A stretch of DNA of 64,000 nucleotides from Myrmaecium sp. VS I D KN 1 (Eukaryota; Ascomycota; Dothideomycetes; Valsariales; Valsariaceae). The translations under genes were made by a program, and so were the position numbers. This document shows, one piece after another, positions 32,784 through 58,928 of the stretch. The stretch lies in NCBI GenBank assembly GCA_019775845.1, contig JADQAV010000008.1:310001-374000 (forward strand), given 5' to 3'. Numbering within the stretch: the first letter of the stretch is position 1; every line of letters begins with the position of its first letter. The notes under the pieces were generated by a model that was not told the origin of the DNA, ran no database searches, and saw only the letters and a program-made list of their open reading frames with translations.

Positions 32784-33551
32784 TTTTTTCTGTTTTGTCT
32801 CTATTGTGTCTTGGAGCGTTCTGAGCCGGTTCTGTTACGTTTTTCGTTTTGCTTGCGCGACGTTTCGTTTCTTTCTTCTTTTTGCATGGCGATGCGGGAA
32901 TGTTTTAGTTGTACGGGCTCCTTCTTCGATTTTCGGCATTGCGATTGCGTGGACTTTGGACCTTGGACCTTGAGAGTTAGGGTGTACGGTGTTTTTGTGG
33001 GCAAGGTGTACGTATGGTGTTTGAGGTGTTAAGGGTGTTCAGGGTGTTTGGTTTGTTTGGTCTGTTGACTGGTGGTTGTGGGGGCTTTTATTCATCTGCT
33101 GTTGGATTTGAGATGGGATGAATTTATTCTTATCATCATTTTTTCTTTTCTTTTTCTTTTTGGGAACTGATGGTGTGCGCTGGGTATTAGGTATCTATCT
33201 ATCCACATCCGTCTTGATCATGGTCCTCCCTCGGATCTCTGTGATACTTTTGCATGCAAGCGCCTCGTATGCAAGCGCCAAGAAGAAGAAGAAGNNNNNN
33301 NNNNNNNNNNNNNNNNNNNNNNNNNNNNNNNNNNNNNNNNNAGAAGAAGGAGAAGAAGGAGAAGAAGGAGAAGGAGAAGAAAGTCAATGTCAAAATAAGT
33401 TGATTTGACACCCATACACGTACATAAATCTATATCGCATCTTACTCATACACAGTAACCCTCCCACCCTCAATCCCCCATTTCCCCATTTTGGTTTTCC
33501 TTCTCCCCACTTCCCTCCCCATCCCTCCCCCTCCCTCTCAGCAAGCAATCA
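32621..33551. other. Intergenic with T30 tract, GAA repeat and assembly gap
   Basis: Convergent 3' flanks of MED12 and the MBA1-type gene. Contains an uninterrupted run of 30 T (32753-32782) and a purine-rich AAG/GAA microsatellite (about 33280-33382) interrupted by the gap of N. No gene seen. Confidence 0.6.
33295..33341. repeat. Assembly gap (47 N) inside a GAA/AAG microsatellite
   Basis: Both flanks are GAA-type repeat (AAGAAGAAGAAG before; AGAAGAAGGAGAAGAAGG after), so the true repeat length is unknown and the run of N is probably a placeholder. Confidence 0.9.
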
Positions 33552-48300: not shown

Positions 48301-48492
48301 CCAGGTATTGGTTGTTTAACGATCGACATCGTCATCCGATCCTTCGTTCCTTCTTTCTTGGTTTCTGATTTCTGATTTCCGATTTTTTTCTCTCTTTTCT
48401 TTCATTCAAATGTGAGTTGTTGCGTATGGCTCTGAGGGCCGAAGAAAGTCTAAAAAGAAACGAAGGCGATTTAGGTGATTTCGAAGAATCCC
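45338..48492. other. Long gene-poor stretch between ADE1 and MAT
   Basis: About 3.1 kb with several short open frames but no recognisable protein family and no convincing splice pattern. A 63-codon minus frame (45862-45671) with a hydrophobic N-terminus (MMGSFLALGWIIKAVCMVAS) is the only one I would look at again. Pyrimidine-rich tracts occur near 46470-46500 and 48085-48130. There is no sign of SLA2. Confidence 0.5.
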
Positions 48493-48697
48493 GTCAGGCT
48501 GGGACATGAAGCCTGACTGGTCTAGTCATAAACGAGTGTAAGTTTTGTTTAAAAAAACAAGATGGCGCCATGTGGTCCGTAAAGCACCAGTCCGGCATTG
48601 TATATAAAAATGTTGGGTAAAAGCTGTGTCGATAGATGGTAGGAATAAAAAACGTGCGGTTAGCGATAAATTCTGTTCTGCTCTTTCTTGTCGGAAC
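48493..48697. repeat. MAT flank repeat copy R1 (3' of the HMG gene)
   Basis: About 200 bases matching 51395-51596 in the same orientation. Shared runs include GTCAGGCTGGGACATGAAGC and GTCTAGTCATAAACGAGTGT, and ATGTGGTCCGTAAAGCACCA is identical in both. By eye the first ~165 bases agree at roughly 85-90%, the rest less. It starts about 80 bases past the HMG gene stop. Confidence 0.9.
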
Positions 48698-48775
48698 AGG
48701 ATCAAGTAAGACGGATGATCCTATAGGAATGTAGCTGCTCAGCAGTTACGCCCCAGTAGCGAGTTTTCTGACGCC

Positions 48776-49990
48776 TTAGTTCCAGACGAGAGAAGGTTCG
48801 AAAAGTGAACCGTTGTTTGCGTTGAGATTGTCCATACGGTTGGCCTCTTTATAGGGATTGGCAGAGCCCGTGGAAGGAGCAGGTCCGGCAGGCTGAAAGC
48901 TGTGATAGGCATTGCTGAGCAATAGTTCGAAGTTCAGCCTGGCTTCAATACCACGCTCGTTGCAGAACGTCTCTGCCCCGAGATAAGTCGGGTTTTGGTA
49001 GAGCTTTTCATAGCTCAAAGGAAGGACTGAAATACTGGCTGAGGGTTTTTGAGCAGTAGATACTTCGAACTCGGGAATGAGCGGAGGAATCGGATCAAGA
49101 ACTTCAGCAGCTTGTTTTGCGAGATCAGAGACTGCTGCAAGAATGTGTTAGTGAGTGCTTGTTGTAGTAGTTATATGCTGGAGCTACTACTTACCTGCTT
49201 TCTTCCTACTCAGACGTCTTTTCTTTTCACCAGGCTTGCGAGGCGAGTAGCGGTAACCGGGGTGTAACAACTCGTGCGCTTCGGCTTCCTTGCGAGCCCT
49301 CTCCTTCCACAGGTTCTTGACCTCGATCGGCTCTTTGCGCCACATCTCACCGATTATTTTGGCTAATGTAGGTCAGACATTGTCAATCTCAGATATACTT
49401 TGTGATGGAGACTTACAAACTTGGCAAGTGCGGAGAGCACCAGTGCTGATCTTGCTATGGTAATATTCGCGGTAAAGGATGAAACAGTTGCGGGGCCTTC
49501 TGACTTTGTCGGCCTTGGAAGCGGAAGACGGTTTGCTCTTTTTAGGACAATGTGCCGTGGTTCCTTCATCCCTGGGTTTATCTGTGGCAGGCGGTTCCTG
49601 TACTTCATTCATATTCGGCAACGGCGAGGTGTAATGGTGCTCAGTAAGTTGCTGCTGATCCACAGCGATTGTAGTACGAGCATTACAGTCTGCCACTGGT
49701 GGAGGAGCGGGCATCATTGCACGCTTGATGGTCGCTCCGCCTGGAAGTAAAGCCGTCGGGGCTTCTTGGATTTTTGTGAACGTCACCTCATCGTCGTGGA
49801 TGATGTACTGAGTATTGCATTGGTTCAACCACGAGTAGCGGGCAACGACCAAATTGAAGCAATTGTCGCCGAGGTCTCTCAGATAGGGCTGCTTCGGGAT
49901 CGTGAATTGTAGCGCAGTGCCCTGCTTGGATACTTGCAAGCAGTAGACCCAGAGTTGCTCCATTTCGGCGATCTTCTCTGATGATGACAT
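48776..49990 (-). CDS. MAT1-2-1: HMG-box mating-type protein
   Basis: Three exons: 49990-49417, 49362-49195 and 49134-48776, giving 366 residues. The HMG box spans about residues 163-235: RRPRNCFILYREYYHSKIST, then QVSKIIGEMWRKEPIEVKN, then HELLHPGYRYSPRKPGEKKR. The first intron splits the serine codon of VS-KIIG, the position conserved in fungal MAT1-2-1 HMG boxes. The N-terminal ~100 residues (MEQLWVYCLQVSKQGTALQF) resemble the N-terminal region of MAT1-2-1 proteins. An alternative is MAT1-1-3, also HMG. The idiomorph-like tandem layout and the position beyond MAT1-1-1 favour MAT1-2-1. It is a nuclear DNA-binding regulator of mating identity. The box is intact, though RPRNC departs from the usual RPPNA. 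Confidence 0.85.
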
Positions 49991-50595
49991 TGTCGGTGAC
50001 CGTCCGATGTGGTCAACGTGAGGTAACGAAGTAGAAGAAAGAAAGGCCGGAAACAAAGAATCGTGTCTTGCGCTATGTCTTAGCTCTATTGAAATGCTTT
50101 GTGGTGGTGTTCAGTAGAACAAAGAAAGGAAGAACGCGGATGAGGAATGGTCACCAAGGGGATCGCTTAGGCGAGGCAGAGTTGCGGATGCCAGAATACA
50201 GCAACCTCCCAATTTTTCTCGGTTCAGAAGGCTTAGTTAAGCTGTGAGAGTAGAAGTAATCTCAATGCCGAGCAATTGCATGTGATTGAGCCAGGTCTTC
50301 TCGTAGGCAAAATCTTGGAAGACTATAACCATCATTTTGCAGTCATTTCAGAAGAGAAGTATAGCATTCAGACGACTGATAAGGTCTTTGAACAAGGCAA
50401 AAGGCACAACATTTGATACGATGGTTGAAGTGCAAAGAAACTTGGAAGTTAGAGATATCTCATCTCCGCCTTAACAAACACTTTTGCTCTACAGCAAGTC
50501 TTTGCCCATTATTATCATGCTTCTATTGAACGAGATAAGAGGCTCGCTGAGTCTCTTTCCTACTTAGGCGGCTCAACATTCAAATGTGTTTGGGC
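49991..50595. other. Promoter region of the HMG gene
   Basis: About 600 bases upstream of the HMG start codon with no coding character. I see no clear match to the corresponding region upstream of MAT1-1-1, as expected for idiomorph-specific sequence. Confidence 0.5.
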
Positions 50596-51394
50596 TTACT
50601 CATTGCCGCGTTGATGGCGATTTTTGTAGGAGAGCTCCGAGGCCGACCGGTCTGCGCCAGGATGAATCGGAACTTGAGTTGATGTTCTGCAGAGAGTATT
50701 AGTACATGAAGTAGGTACCGAATCTGAGGATAGGATGGTCACGTGGATACTACAAAGGGGCATATCGGCAGCCTCCAATCGCCACGCCATACAGACCATA
50801 TTATACAGGTTGACGATCGTCAACCATGGTAATTACATAAAGGATACATATCTTCTCGTAACTCGCAGTCCGGGTTCTGAATATGCAGAAACCATCAGCC
50901 CAGTGGCAGACCATTGTATTGGATCCTCACCCTTGAACGCGCGTGGATGTCCTCTCCTACAAGCGACAGTCAAGCTCCTAAAGTTCACGAGCAGCAATCT
51001 CCTGATATATAGTTCCAATTGTGTCCAAAGTTTTAGAGGGCTTGCTTGATAATAGCCTCTCTATCATGTACTGAAGTCATCTGCTTGTATGACTGTCAGT
51101 CTCTGGCACATCAAGGCGTTGATCATGGCTCAATCTTGCCATTCTCCTGTCAGATGGCAATGTAATCTTCTTGTATGGCTCGCCCATATCTCCTTGGCGC
51201 TCTGTGTCAGTAGTTGGCAGCATTTGCCTGGCTCATCTCAGAAAGCTGTTGCGCAGGATCAATGTTTGTCATCTTTCGGTGTGTACACCGGGCGCACCTT
51301 TTCCAAAGAACTGGGCCTAGGGTGCCATCTCATCCCTGAAGTGAGGACATGACTCAAATACTGCTTCCTTCTCCATGGCCTTGTAGACGATCCA
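50596..51394 (-). pseudogene. Decayed 3' fragment of the auxiliary MAT gene
   Basis: This ~800 base stretch matches the 3' part of the auxiliary MAT gene (about 54335-53507) in the same orientation and collinearly. Examples in minus sense: GCCATGGAGAAG versus GCCATCGAGAAG at the upstream end, ATACATTGCCAT in GAATACATTGCCATT-like context (AGATTACATTGCCATCTGAC here), CAGAACCCGGACTG versus CACAACCCAGATTG, and near the 3' end KFRFILAQTGRPRSSP versus EFRFTLRHPGRPRISP. Stops interrupt the upstream half of the reading frame, so it is a host pseudogene, cut off at its 5' end exactly where repeat R2 begins. The last exon-like part is the best preserved. Confidence 0.85.
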
Positions 51395-51596
51395 GTCAGG
51401 CTGGGACATGAAGCCTGACCCGTCTAGTCATAAACGAGTGTAAGTATTTTTGGAAGAAACAAGATGTCGGCATGTGGTCCGTAAAGCACCAGTCCGGCCT
51501 CGTAAATAAAAATGTTGGTTAAAAGCTGTCTCAATAAATGGTAGGAATGGAATATGTGCGGTGGCGATATCTTTTAATGATCTTTTGTTCGGAGAA
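51395..51596. repeat. MAT flank repeat copy R2 (3' of MAT1-1-1)
   Basis: Second copy of the ~200 base repeat at 48493-48697, direct orientation. It begins right after the truncated end of the pseudogene and ends about 45 bases before the MAT1-1-1 stop codon. It is presumably the common 3' flank of the two MAT genes. Confidence 0.9.
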
Positions 51597-51642
51597 GCGG
51601 GTTGTTAGGGAGGTCACGATGATATAAAGATATCTTTTGAGC

Positions 51643-52921
51643 CTACTCAAAGGCAGGAGGCTGCATCCAGATTTCATCGCGGCCATCCACATTCATAGGC
51701 GCAAACGCATCGCCCTGAAGGTCCGAATGAAATGTCGTAATTCCCACGTTGAGATTGACGTCCGGATGAAAGAAACCATGGTAAGGAAATTCGGCCCTTG
51801 TATCCCAGATCCTTTTGGTACCAGCCGTGACGAAGTCAGACATAGCAGCATCTTGGGGATCAATGTAAAACGGTGCAGTATTGTTGATGCTGTTGACGTG
51901 AGCGCTCCCGTAACCTAGGACAGCATCGAAAACTGCCTCCATTGAGGCCTCGGCAGCTCTCTCTTGGCCTGCATGAGGGAATACAGGTAGGTTTGGCACA
52001 ATTCGGTTCTCATTGCTCCATTGGTGAGGCCCAGTGATCGGATATTTCTGCTGACCAGACTTCCCAGTATTTACTGGAAGAGGATTAGAAGATGCAGTAA
52101 AGTCGTTACAGATGTATGATGACTTACGGAAGGACCTTAATTCAGGCGCGACCGGTTCTGCTTGACTTTTGGTCTGCGGATGCGCAACGTCATCGCAGAA
52201 ACTGCAGATATGAATCTCGACTGGAGTAGGGGGAGTTTGAACGCTCATAATCAGAGATTCTCCTTCGGCCTGACGAGTGCTACCCATATTACTGTAGCCG
52301 TTCTCGCGACAAAACGTCAGGATATCATCCACGGAGGTAGTCGTAGTTGTGGGAATATTCGATCGATTGTTAGGCGAGAAGCGTAGCAGCTCTGGATTCG
52401 GTCCAACGAGGCTCAAATTCCAGCCAAGCGCTTCGAGGTAAACTTCCAACCGGGGAACGTTGATGAAAGGGACCGCCATATGCAGGAAGACATCCAGGGG
52501 AGCTTTGTCTTTACCAACTGTATCGCGGATCACAGACCAAGCTTTTGAAAGGATGCTCCATTTTGCCTTGTAGGGATCGCTACTCCAAAGCTTCTTCACG
52601 AAGCCGGAAATAACCTTCTGTTCGAGACCTTTGAAAATATTGCTGTAGTAACCTGATCACAGAGAGGTCAGTAATGACGGCCTGGCCGGGCACTGAGGCC
52701 TTCAAAGCTGCTCACTTACATCGAAATGCAATCCATGAGTTTAAGGGGCGCTTCGCTTTCGTGATGACCTCGGATTGTGGCTTCATTACAGTAGGGGGAA
52801 TTCTCGCGACGGTACGATTCCGGAGCAGCTTGCTTGTGATATCATGTATTCCCTCGAGCATTTCCTGGGTGCAAGTTTCATGCAACCACTTGATGCATGT
52901 AGGGTCAAGGGCGACAGCCAT
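51643..52921 (-). CDS. MAT1-1-1: Alpha-box mating-type protein
   Basis: Three exons: 52921-52720, 52652-52128 and 52073-51643, giving 385 residues. The alpha box starts near residue 56 with KAKRPLNSWIAFRCYYSNIF and continues GLEQKVISGFVKKLWSSDPY, KAKWSILSKAWSVIRD and KAPLDVFL. The first intron lies in the conserved position inside the box (RC-YYS). The downstream part includes VPRLEVYLEALGWNLSLVGP, also seen after the box in other MAT1-1-1 proteins, then a Ser/Pro/Thr-rich tail. It is the master transcription factor of the MAT1-1 mating type, working with Mcm1. The only in-frame ATG ahead of the box is at 52921. No interruption is seen, so it appears functional alongside the HMG gene. Confidence 0.93.
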
Positions 52922-53506
52922 GATGAAGTCGACGGAGAACAAAGAAACTGGGTACGTTGGTTTGTCTCAGTCTCACCGAGCTTCTTTGTTGTTGAGCTTC
53001 AATTGGACAAAGGCACGAAGAAAGAGATCGCCGAGTACAGACGGAAGGAATTCTTTGACGGAGTGAGGTGGCGAGGAAAGAATTCAGGAGCAATTAGACT
53101 GTAGCGATGTTGCTAGAAAGTGAAGCCAGCGGTGTAAGTGTAGTGGTCTTGAAAGGGTTGAGCTGACATGTGATATGAATCTTTCCGTGTGTAGGCGGCG
53201 CTCTCGTCTAATGAGGACGGCTTGTCAAGCAAACCCAGCGAGGACCTGAACGCTTGATTGCGAAGGAACATAAAGGTGCTGGAACAAAGCGAAGGGCTAG
53301 CATAAAGTCATGAAAAAGCCTGCTTTTAAGGTAATACACCGCCTCTGGGATCTTCATGATTTGAACTACTTTTCACTCCATTCAATTATTTGGTGATTCT
53401 TTAATTGCATGCCCTACACCCTACACTGGCCTCGCCTCCAAATTCTCAAAATTATCAGGCAAAAGCCATTGCAGAGAATTGCTTCCTCGCTGGGCTTTCT
53501 ATCATC
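52922..53506. other. Promoter region of MAT1-1-1
   Basis: About 585 bases between the auxiliary gene stop and the MAT1-1-1 start, both minus. No coding signal. Confidence 0.5.
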
Positions 53507-54817
53507 TCATTTCCCCTTCTTTGCAATTTTGGTTGCGTTGACTGCAATAATACCAGGCGAGATTCGAGGGCGGCCAGGATGTCTTAAGGTGAAACGGAAC
53601 TCTTGCTGACGGTCTGGTACATGTCAACTGGAAGCCTCACGCCAAGTAGATGTTGGGTGCTCTATTTACCAAGATGTATGTCGACCGTCTCCAGCCTCCA
53701 CGGCAAGCTGATCATATCCTGGGCATTCGTCAATATAGTGGGAAATAAATGGTACATATGTAATACATGCCTTCCGGTAGCCCCAATCTGGGTTGTGAAC
53801 AGCCTGCAATCCGTCAGTTAGGTCGACGCTGTCAATTTGATCGCCCTACCCGTGAAGTGCGTGCATGGATGTCACTTCCCAACAGGCGACGGTTGAGATT
53901 TAGAAGCCGGCGAGATGCCTTCGCCGTGAGTGTCAGTACAAGTTTTATCTCGGATCTTCGAGACTCACCTCATTATAGTCTTCCAAATTGTGTTCTTGGT
54001 GGACCTGCGGTTTCTACCTCATGAGATTCTACCACACTCCTCAAAGATAGCACAGTTGAGCCTTAGAGATGACTGACCTTGTCGATGTCCTGGCAAATGG
54101 CAATGTATTCTCTTGTGTGGTTCGCCCATATTTCCATAGCACTGTGGGGTAATAGTTGATAGTACTTGTTGGGCTCGTCTTTGACAAGCGGTTGCGCCGG
54201 GTCAACATAGGTCAGTTTGTCCGCAGGTACACCAGGCGCATTCTTTCCGAGGAATTGCGCCCAAGGTGCAACTCCGACTTTGTAGTGTGGTCTCGATATT
54301 GCTATCGCGCTCTTCTCGATGGCCTCATAATTGTCACAAACGTTATCTCGGGACCGAATGATAGTAGAAATGTCGCTTATAAGCTCCATGACACCTTTCT
54401 GAAACCAAGCGAGTTGCGCTACACCAGGGAAAGCCTCTGGGGTCCTCACAAGACGATCATAGCGCACCAAGGTAGCCTCTAGCATTTCTTTCACAACGTC
54501 TCTGTTGAGCATGGAGTAGTTTACTTGATACGCGGCTCGAATGGACATAAGAGTCCCAATGATGGAAATCAGAAGCTTTGTATCGGCAATGAACGGCTCC
54601 GCTAGGGACGTTAACCCGGTGTGATTGACAGCAACTCGGTGGAATTGGAGGATCGGAACTTACAAACACGATTCCCTTCATCGAAAATGTCGAATCCAGA
54701 ATAGAGACCCAGGCGGTCGGAGTGAAATGCGAGTCTCATAGGCTGTGACAGCAACTCCTCAGGGTTTTCTTTTTCATTGGATACTTGCATATAACCTTGT
54801 TTGAGTAGTTCTGCCAT
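53507..54817 (-). CDS. Auxiliary MAT1-1 protein (MAT1-1-2-like or class-specific)
   Basis: Seven exons: 54817-54664, 54601-54078, 54004-53969, 53918-53850, 53803-53756, 53718-53670 and 53601-53507, giving about 324 residues with consistent phases. The fifth intron is only 37 bases, so that junction is the least certain. The protein starts MAELLKQGYMQVSNEKENPE. Stretches that look conserved are APWAQFLGKNAPGVPADKLT, YYQLLPHSAMEIWANHTREY and LRHPGRPRISPGIIAVNATK. Conservation of the last one in the neighbouring pseudogene supports this 3' end. There is no known DNA-binding domain. Position next to MAT1-1-1 and general style fit MAT1-1-2 of Sordariomycetes, but a class-specific gene such as MAT1-1-7 of lichen fungi is equally possible. 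Function unknown. Confidence 0.72.
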
Positions 54818-55024: not shown

Positions 55025-56072
55025 ATGTCGACCATCAATACAAGTGGGTTTGACAGTATCGCACAAGCGTGGAGCGCATGCCGGCGTGACACAAGGAAAC
55101 AGAAAGACAGTGAAATCCTCACGATCTTGAGTTCTTTCGAGAAAGTGACTGCCGATGCACAGAGTGCCAATTGCGCTGATGAGAAGGACTTGGCTTTGAA
55201 CAACGACGCCGCGAACTCGAACGATCACGATGAGACCGAAGCCGAGAAATGTACGCAAACAAATCGTGAATCGACTTCTAGTGTTAGGGGAGAATCGGAA
55301 AACGAACAAGGTCCGACGGCACCCAAAACTATCAAGGACCTGCGCAATGAAATCAGTGATTTGTTACAAGAGTTATGCCCAAAACCGCACGGACGAGCGG
55401 AACAACAACAAGATTTCGAAGAGTTCCTCAGTGGCTACGCACCATCCGATGTTCTCGAGGCCTTAGATATACCTCCAGATATGGCGGAATTCTGGAGGCT
55501 GAAGGCTTTGGCAGATAGCGTGAAGCGCATGAATAAGTATGCGCTCATAGAAGATCTCCAGGGGTAAGTCAAAGAGCTATCGTATGCATTATTTTGCGCT
55601 GAAAATATTAGTGAACTCAAGAGAAATGAAGCACTTCAGAAGCTTCACGATTTGATCGAAGAAGAACAGGTGCCAGCATTCCCGGCACTGATGAGACAAG
55701 AGCAGTGCCTCACACTTCAAGAGTTCTTCGAATACTGTCCAAATCCAAACGAGGCCGAAATCGAATTTCTTGGACACTACCTCGACCTCAATCAGGAGGA
55801 GATTCGAGCTTTCTGTAGGTTCTGACATCGGCTATAAGTGGAGAACACCATCATTGACATTGAAACCTGCAGTTGTCGGCAAAAGACGGGAGAACAAGAC
55901 TGCCCTTATCCAGCGTGCGAGCGCCCAGGGCACAACCGTTTTCAAGCGGCCAGCGGGCATTCTCGACCGTACTATGGTTAGAGACCATATCACCCGTCCT
56001 GACGACCCAGAAATCGAACAGAACCCACTAAGAGGCCTTGATAACCCAAACAGATCGGGAAAGGCAGCTTGA
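55025..56072 (+). CDS. Divergent homeodomain-like protein in the MAT locus
   Basis: Three exons: 55025-55563, 55612-55814 and 55873-56072, giving 313 residues. The N-terminal half is acidic and hydrophilic. Residues about 205-256 follow the homeodomain pattern: LQEFFEYCPNPNEAEIEFL gives L215 and F219 (consensus L16 and F20) and PxP (NPYP-like). Then come L233 (L34), L239 (L40) and helix 3 EEIRAFFVGKRRENK, with I244 (45), F247 where W48 is usual, F248 (F49), G250 where N51 is usual, and R252 (R53). The second intron splits the helix 3 codon F248. Loss of W48 and especially N51 means DNA binding is doubtful. I know of no standard MAT gene of this type in filamentous ascomycetes. It is divergent from the auxiliary MAT gene (207 bases apart). 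Confidence 0.7.
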
Positions 56073-56944: not shown

Positions 56945-58928
56945 CTACCACTGCAGAGTGGAGCCAACCTGAGAGATGTATTGATGTCCTTCAACGTACC
57001 TTGGACAAATCCAAAACGAACGCCCGCAATTGAATCCTGCTTTCTTGGTCGTCAAGAAGATGCATGGTTCATCATGCCCTTCGCAACGGGGGGGCACTGG
57101 CTTTGAGAAGAGCTTGCTCCAGGATTCCTTGGAAGCGATGGGATCAACGAAAACTTCGGCGTCCCCCAACTCTGCCTGGACTGGTATGCCATTCGATGCC
57201 GCTGTGCTTGATGGCGTTTTCCCTGGAGATCTGCTATGACTCTCTGAGAGTGTAGTCGAGTCTTTTGCCATTGCTGGGGTGGTAGATACAATGTCGGGAG
57301 GCAGGACGCTCTCTGGGCTTGCAGTTTCTTTCGGATCAACTAAGTCTCCTTCGGCCGATCTTTCAGGGACCTCGTTTTGGACCAACGTTGCAGGCACGAG
57401 CATTCCAGTCCCCACGATTTTCCTGGTGGGAGGCTTGAAGAAGCTTTGAAGGGTCTGTTGGCCTGACAAACGGACGGATACCTTAGCTTGTGAGATGCTG
57501 GCTTTGGTGCGTTTCAGGGGCTTAGGCGATGTTTTTGAGGCCGACGAGGATGCGCGCTTAAGCGTAGAGGGGACAGTGAGCTTTTGGCTGTTTGAGGGTG
57601 ATATTGGTGATCCCTTGGTGAGACCAAGCGAACTGAAGCCCGAAGATTCCGAATCTACCGGCCGCCCGTTGGATGACTGAGCAGTTGCGGGGTTGGATTC
57701 GGTATCAGTCTCCAGTTGTGGAGGTTTACGAGCAAACATGTCTTTGATACTTCGACGATTCGTGAACTCTTCAAGCCTTCTTCCGGAGAACGCCAGTATA
57801 TCTCTGCTCGTGTACTCCCGGATTCGTACTCCGTTGCTAAACATGCCGTCTGGATTCATCATGTCCAGTAGATCCACAACTTTCCCATTGACAGAGACCT
57901 TCTTCTTGAAAGTAGCATAGACCGGGCAATGATCAGATCCCATCAGCCCCTCCTGGATGTTGGCATCCAACACCCAGTCCTTCAAGCTTGTGCTAACCAG
58001 GATGTAATCGATACGTGAACCGAAATTCGCCGGTCTCGCATTGATTTTCTGCTCCCAGTGCGTATACATTCCAGTGCGGCGAGGATGAAATTCACGGGTG
58101 GTATCCCAGAGGATCGGTTTCTCGCGGCCTTCGTCTCTCTGCCCCACAACTTCACCGCCTTCGAGCAGTTGATTGAAGATACGTCTGTTGGGTGTAGAGA
58201 TGTATTCTTCATGTGTGAGGCCTTCTTTGCGCAAGCTTTCTTCTGCATGGGCCGTGTCGATCTCGGAGCGAGATACGTTCAGATCTCCAGTAAGGATGAC
58301 TCTCTTCCCGGCAGCTGTTAGATTGCGGATTCTAGTGTCTAAGGCGGATACAAAAGCATAGCGAAAATCGTCCCGTAGTCCATTACTGTTCGCGGGACTA
58401 TATACGCCAAGAAGGACAAAGGCCGGGAATTCCAGTACAACGCATCGACCCTCGGCGTCAATGCTAACAGGATCGATTCCAAGGCTGTCGATTTGAGACG
58501 CACTAAGATAGCCGCCTATAGATTCATCCGCGGGCAGATCACAGTAGGGCACCTGAGCAGTTGGATGGTTCAGTACTCCCAGAAGGCCTTCCTCGGCACG
58601 TATAGGCGCGCAGACGGCATTGCGTGTGTATATGCCAACGCCGGAGTAACCTAGAAGATGGTGAGCTTTACAATATAGTATAAGTGATCTTCAGTAACTA
58701 TCGACCTTTCTTATGCTTTGGCAGGCTAAAGAAACAGTCCCACCCTGGGATTAGCACCATGTCATCACGGAGATCCTTGCGCTGGATTTTCAGTTCTTGC
58801 ATGACGACGATATCAGCTTGCAAGATATCGAACATCGCATTGAACGATCTATTGTCGCGCCATGGCTGGTAACTAAATGGATTTCGAATCCCATTCACAT
58901 TCCATGTCGTGATGCGAAGGCCAGCCAT
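56945..58928 (-). CDS. APN2: AP endonuclease 2 (DNA lyase)
   Basis: Two exons, 58928-58706 and 58650-56945, giving 642 residues. The exonuclease-endonuclease-phosphatase domain shows ITTWNVNGIRN, DIVVMQELKIQRKDLRDDM, LTGDLNVSRSEID, GSRIDYILVS and GSDHCPVYA, so the catalytic Asn, Glu, Asp and His are present. A PCNA-binding motif GQQTLQSFFKPP follows around residue 420. The C-terminal GRF zinc finger begins normally (PPRCEGHDEPCIFLTTKKAG, NCGRSFWICPR) but the protein stops about 17 residues later at LQW, without the last Cys and aromatic residues usual in this finger. A 3' intron could give a different tail. APN2 repairs abasic sites in the nucleus and is the classical MAT-locus neighbour. Confidence 0.93.

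Follow-up and report, generated by a model that had tools for sequence, protein, structure and literature searches.

How did both mating-type (MAT) master genes come to stand at a single locus in Myrmaecium sp. VS I D KN 1, with duplicated borders around them? The locus lies in a window of 64,000 nucleotides, bases 310001-374000 of contig C64 (JADQAV010000008.1), in a genome of 25.66 Mb in 66 contigs. Coordinates below are those of the window unless prefixed C64, and the gene models across the locus are all predicted. The answer that we consider likely is that a MAT1-1 chromosome was joined to a MAT1-2 chromosome, which would have placed the two master genes in one fused locus. Fusions of opposite mating types are a known route to self-fertility; a fused MAT locus is thus of a known kind, and we do not claim this one as undescribed.

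Read along the minus strand from 54.8 to 48.5 kb, the locus consists of an intact auxiliary gene (AUX, 53507-54817), the alpha-domain master gene MAT1-1-1 (51643-52921), a repeat (R2, 51390-51593), a decayed 3' part of the auxiliary gene (aux', 50607-51385), the HMG-box master gene MAT1-2-1 (48776-49990), and a second copy of the repeat (R1, 48488-48695), all on that strand. MAT1-1-1 would encode 385 or 403 amino acids, depending on its second intron, and its alpha domain (PF04769, E 7.6e-38) is the only match to that family found in the genome. MAT1-2-1, with three predicted exons and 366 amino acids, carries an HMG box (PF00505, E 7e-11) and also touches PF04769 at E 3e-5, below the family cut-off. 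Both frames stay open across their predicted exons, and in these models both genes are intact at the one locus. The sole run of Ns in the window (33295-33341) lies outside the locus, which itself has no gap. A preliminary description of this DNA called the two central genes unrelated; that stands for DNA (score 33, reached by 56 of 200 shuffles) but not for the proteins, which match by blastp at E 4e-5 over a stretch overlapping their DNA-binding domains.

What identifies the locus as two units in tandem is the similarity of their borders. These border comparisons were controlled with 200 dinucleotide shuffles and with real windows from the same genome, and in the genome-wide searches only the best candidates were scored. 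Self-BLASTN of 46-58 kb (E<=1e-3, word sizes 7 and 11) returned two matches only, R1 with R2 and AUX with aux'. The repeats are 87.3% identical over 181 bp (48488-48668 against 51390-51569, E 1e-58), and local alignment lengthens the match to 48488-48695 and 51390-51593 with a score that no shuffle reached (0/200). That score, 276, compares with a best of 33 among genomic windows, none of 2878 reaching it. R2 begins about 50 bp beyond the MAT1-1-1 stop codon and R1 about 80 bp beyond that of MAT1-2-1, so that the two form direct repeats around MAT1-2-1, 2.9 kb apart.

The other border is far more diverged. The core of the AUX/aux' match (51145-51325 against 54088-54269) is 72.7% identical at E 3e-21; the local alignment pairs 53535-54325 with 50608-51381, again at a score reached by none of the 200 shuffles, and gives 67% identity over 739 columns (66-70% across three scoring schemes). 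AUX exon 2 scores 177 where the best genomic window scores 39 (0/2386 reach it), and the 3' part of AUX scores 122 against a best of 45 (0/1042). A DNA search of the whole genome with R1 found two copies of R among the candidates scored, and we rejected the idea that R is a dispersed repeat; neither R nor AUX-related sequence was found elsewhere in the genome, and neither has the look of a dispersed repeat. The tandem of two MAT units with duplicated borders, as first proposed, is therefore borne out, since the scores of both R1/R2 and AUX/aux' exceed every control, and a self-alignment recovers the AUX parts and the repeats alike.

The shared frame reaches further inward than this. Just upstream of each master gene lies a block (52933-53178 for MAT1-1-1 and 50048-50289 for MAT1-2-1, both on the minus strand) that resembles its counterpart with a local score of 60. 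The similarity is weak but significant: no shuffle of 200 reached it (maximum 43), nor did any of 984 genomic windows (best 48 for the MAT1-1-1 side and 44 for the MAT1-2-1 side) or of 176 regions upstream of open reading frames (best 48 and 36, respectively). The units therefore match from AUX exon 2 to near the start codons, with an unalignable gap inside, and again from some 50-80 bp past the stop codons, and their common frame extends nearly to the start codons. Both of the borders reported earlier, of about 800 and 200 bases, hold up, but the longer one does not mark the end of the similarity, given the second block near the start codons. Two different master genes, each enclosed by copies of the same borders in one order and orientation, support the fusion of two units.

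What was aux' before it decayed? The full alignment with AUX holds 176 uninterrupted codons, of which 92 are identical in amino acid, compared with 60/173 and 75/174 in the wrong frames. Seven of those 176 cleanly aligned codons are stops in aux'. Of 20 exonic indels, 16 have lengths not divisible by three (the last four fall where the 3' end of the alignment is forced), and none of the four introns compared in the full alignment keeps both of its splice sites. Within the exon block that aligns best, differences between AUX and aux' number 39 of 83 at third positions and 30 of 162 at first and second positions, an excess which suggests that the ancestors of both were probably working genes. 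A codon-position test, in which we chose to set the silent share of changes at 70% for third positions and 5% for first and second positions, rejects neutrality of aux' since the split in the exon-2 block only (2 delta lnL 8.0).

Where, then, were the two units joined? The R1/R2 match runs to 51390 in R2, some five bases past a 25-nt hairpin that is identical in the two repeats and lies close to their ends (51395-51419 in R2 and 48493-48517 in R1, minus strand); its 8-bp stem is perfect. Protein similarity of aux' to AUX starts at 51385, midway through AUX exon 2, at residue 143 of 338. The end of one similarity and the start of the other thus fall within about 10 bp, mid-exon, and 51385-51390 is probably the fusion point. 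The DNA past R1 does not resemble that past R2 (score 24, reached by 166/200 shuffles), and nothing upstream of aux' corresponds to the 5' part of AUX (score 26, 50/200 shuffles), both as expected if the join lies there. One break-and-join in AUX exon 2 would make both the end of R2 and the truncation of aux', and there is no need for the earlier proviso of an auxiliary gene already truncated in the MAT1-2 idiomorph. The preliminary description also had an unequal crossover between MAT1-1 and MAT1-2 chromosomes. The anatomy upholds the fusion, but not a crossover guided by homology: no similarity is visible at the junction between the end of R and AUX exon 2, and illegitimate exchange or insertion fits better. 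As to the hairpin, an RNA 3'-end element and a fragile site are both conceivable; that it marks a fragile site adjoining the join is a guess. A scan of R1 for bacterial-type promoters and terminators, ill-suited to a fungus, returned nothing.

The proposed sequence of events is short. The ancestral idiomorphs would have had a common layout of auxiliary gene, shared 5' block, master gene, and shared 3' flank (R). One chromosome would have broken downstream of MAT1-1-1, immediately beyond R, and the other within exon 2 of the auxiliary gene that precedes MAT1-2-1, and the two ends would have been joined. The outcome would be a MAT1-1 unit in full and, after it, a MAT1-2 unit lacking roughly the first two fifths of its auxiliary gene. 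What the sequence shows directly is the anatomy, the similarities, the place of the junction, and the decay of aux'; the joining event with its direction, the history of AUX as two alleles, and homothallism are inferred from these. With both master genes in one haploid nucleus selfing should be possible, and the locus is probably homothallic, as the presence of both suggests.

Can the parts be dated? R1 and R2 show 22 differences in 180 aligned columns (12%; Jukes-Cantor 0.133), which implies 0.067 substitutions per site per lineage. AUX and aux' differ at 41% of third positions (38-43% under three schemes) and at 37% of intron columns (32-38%), and R is set apart from these at Fisher p 5e-10 and 1e-8, respectively, under the first scoring scheme. 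This contrast supports the earlier suggestion that the parts are older than the fusion, provided that R is neither constrained nor homogenised. The longest exact run is 28 bp in R and 11 bp in AUX/aux'. How patchy the runs in R appear depends on the measure (P 0.008 for a third-longest run of at least 24, P 0.088 for the three longest summed), a hint of constraint or gene conversion that decides nothing.

Several points weigh against the fusion as we have set it out. If R were neutral, 1.6 stops would be expected in aux' at the R-based age, and there are seven (P 0.0014); these imply about 0.29 neutral substitutions per site (95% interval 0.12-0.60). The two estimates disagree, and a single clock for the locus fails. 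With more stops than the R-based age allows, constraint or homogenisation of R is one possibility, and decay of aux' on the MAT1-2 chromosome from before the fusion is the other. The codon-position test over all exons does not reject a neutral aux' (2 delta lnL 0.39). The stretch between the 5' block and the end of AUX does not align above background in the two units. After so much divergence, no microhomology is demonstrable at the join. Finally, the fusion is judged from this one genome.

The alternative that survives best is that the MAT1-2 idiomorph already had no more than a truncated and decaying 3' piece of the auxiliary gene and that a later crossover fused the idiomorphs exactly at its border. 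This is a variant of the fusion and compatible with its core. Decay older than the R-based age is what the stops suggest, and truncated auxiliary or master genes within the opposite idiomorph are described in Grosmannia (PMC3583454), Botrytis cinerea (PMC3158057), and Morchella, with mention of Phyllosticta (PMC9318749). It would, however, require that two borders of independent origin coincide to about 10 bp, without any left-flank DNA separating R2 from aux', and we regard prior truncation as unlikely, if still the most serious competitor to a single join.

Less probable again is that the tandem is an old, ancestral homothallic locus from which heterothallic relatives derive by deletion. Such a direction has been proposed for Botrytis (PMC3158057), and homothallism as the ancestral state in Morchella (PMC9318749). 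An ancestral tandem does not itself explain why borders are duplicated on both sides, and the copies of R are merely 12% diverged, although R may be constrained.

Could the locus still be switching? Recombination between R1 and R2 would remove aux' and MAT1-2-1 and give a self-sterile MAT1-1 strain, and unidirectional switching of this type would be compatible with the fusion. Direct repeats 2.9 kb apart do flank MAT1-2-1, and in size and place they resemble those of Sclerotinia trifoliorum (146 bp) and Ceratocystis fimbriata (260 bp; PMC4891775) and of Chromocrea (115 bp; PMC5608430). In Chromocrea (PMC5608430) and S. trifoliorum (PMC4891775), however, the repeats are reported as identical, whereas R1 and R2 are 87-88% identical. 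The near-identity expected of switching loci is lacking in these copies, and their divergence and short exact runs make active switching at R1/R2 unlikely, and less probable than the preceding alternatives. Exchange between the repeats would nonetheless delete MAT1-2-1 and leave a clean MAT1-1 locus, and a MAT1-2 locus would result from exchange between AUX and aux'. Assemblies are known to place alleles in tandem by error, but we rejected an artefact that joins two haplotypes of a mixed or hybrid culture as highly improbable on the grounds that the locus is free of gaps and its copies diverged (R at 22/180 sites), with aux' truncated and decayed besides and 25.66 Mb being what we take to be an ordinary haploid size for a filamentous ascomycete.

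How does the fused locus compare with those already described? MAT1-1-1 and MAT1-2-1 share one locus in Capronia coronata, C. epimyces, C. semiimmersa, and Incumbomyces lentus (PMC8900376, PMC11195213, PMC10484061), all Chaetothyriales, as they do here. There too APN2, COX13, and APC5 neighbour MAT, and the auxiliary gene MAT1-1-4 of C. coronata finds a position-matched counterpart in AUX. The parts of these papers compared make no mention of duplicated borders or of an equivalent of aux', both present in Myrmaecium, and in C. coronata SLA2 and APN2 are described as flanking MAT, whereas here they lie on the same side of it. Exophiala sideris and E. viscosa have a fused MAT gene (PMC10411609).

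In Grosmannia and Ophiostoma, a truncated gene of the opposite idiomorph stands beside the HMG gene of MAT1-2 and is ascribed to unequal recombination; the idiomorphs are separate there, in different strains, and the truncated gene is the master gene MAT1-1-1, not an auxiliary one (PMC3583454). B. cinerea has gene remnants at its idiomorph borders and Sclerotinia sclerotiorum both MAT genes at one locus, but the direction inferred for that group is from homothallic to heterothallic (PMC3158057). Remnants of opposite-idiomorph genes are described also in Morchella, with mention of Phyllosticta (PMC9318749). In Chromocrea spinulosa, S. trifoliorum, and C. fimbriata, the self-fertile locus has MAT1-2-1 between direct repeats of 115-260 bp; in the first two these involve MAT1-1-1, whereas in Myrmaecium the repeats are 3' flanks (PMC5608430, PMC4891775). 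Against the literature passages compared, three features of the present locus stand out: a legible join, double borders that include the 5' block, and auxiliary genes that are homologous between the units.

The intact auxiliary gene deserves a closer look. Its predicted six-exon model (54817-54664, 54601-54078, 54013-53969, 53918-53850, 53803-53686, and 53613-53507, minus strand) encodes 338 amino acids. The final intron requires a weak GTCGAC donor, and exon 5 reads in frame into a TAA (53685-53614); the 3' end holds either an unusual intron or a frame change between exon 5 and the conserved last exon. AUX has no Pfam match at E<=10, and a viral-contig scan with 226 of its amino acids gave no relative. 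The structure predicted for exon 2 alone has a mean pLDDT of 48.8, too poor for use. A DNA search of the genome recovered AUX alone; it missed aux', which is visible only to more sensitive comparisons. A translated search at E<=1 found AUX and, weakly, aux' (E 1.3e-4 and 0.05); further paralogues were rejected, with none at that threshold among the candidates scored. AUX adjoins MAT1-1-1 inside the MAT locus, the place reported for MAT1-1-4 (PMC10411609, PMC10484061), and we call it MAT1-1-4-like by position only.

The genes around the locus are familiar ones. To the left of MAT lie a SAICAR synthetase (ADE1-like, ~44.5 kb), a mitochondrial carrier (~42.6 kb), and APC5 (39.1-39.6 kb; PF12862, E 2.5e-36); to the right lie an APN2-like nuclease (56948-58690; PF03372, E 1.5e-12), COX6A/COX13 (59.7 kb), and, about 24 kb past the end of the window, an SLA2 domain (C64:397519-398033). 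We take the names APN2, ADE1, and SLA2 from domain and gene order rather than from orthology. The ascomycete MAT neighbours APN2, SLA2, COX13, and APC5 are all present near the locus. A search of the genome for 5.8S rRNA gave no match. The APN2-like gene and the SLA2 domain are 26-29 kb apart to the right of MAT, opposite APC5; that the first two do not flank MAT suggests a local rearrangement. Near SLA2 there is a long open frame (C64:387938-393211, 1758 amino acids from stop to stop), the start of which may be REV3-like. Between AUX and the APN2-like gene, an open frame of 180 amino acids (55025-55567, plus strand) has Menin as its best Pfam match (E 0.011, under the cut-off); a gene at a similar place is mentioned for E. 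sideris (PMC10411609).

What would the fusion mean? Rearrangement of MAT is a frequent explanation for changes between outcrossing and selfing in ascomycetes (for example PMC3583454, PMC3158057). With a probable join placed within about 10 bp and diverged border copies in both units, the age of a fusion (from R) is in principle separable here from the age of the idiomorph split (from AUX). The fusion also predicts that MAT1-2 strains of heterothallic relatives carry an AUX-related gene. In most Lecanoromycetes studied an auxiliary gene accompanies each idiomorph, although those of MAT1-1 and MAT1-2 are reported as different (PMC6414310), whereas AUX and aux' are homologous. AUX may represent two old alleles, one per mating type, even though the dating is inconsistent between R and the stops. 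We suggest tentatively, as a possibility that we rate on the doubtful side, that AUX and aux' are mating-type-specific alleles of one ancestral gene, and that, as the common 5' blocks and 3' flanks would also indicate, the idiomorphs diverged from one ancestral locus in which the non-homologous part hardly exceeds the coding sequence of the master genes. If this is true, the fused locus caught both auxiliary alleles in one genome, and MAT1-1-4 and MAT1-2-4 of Eurotiomycetes and lichens might be diverged alleles of one gene.

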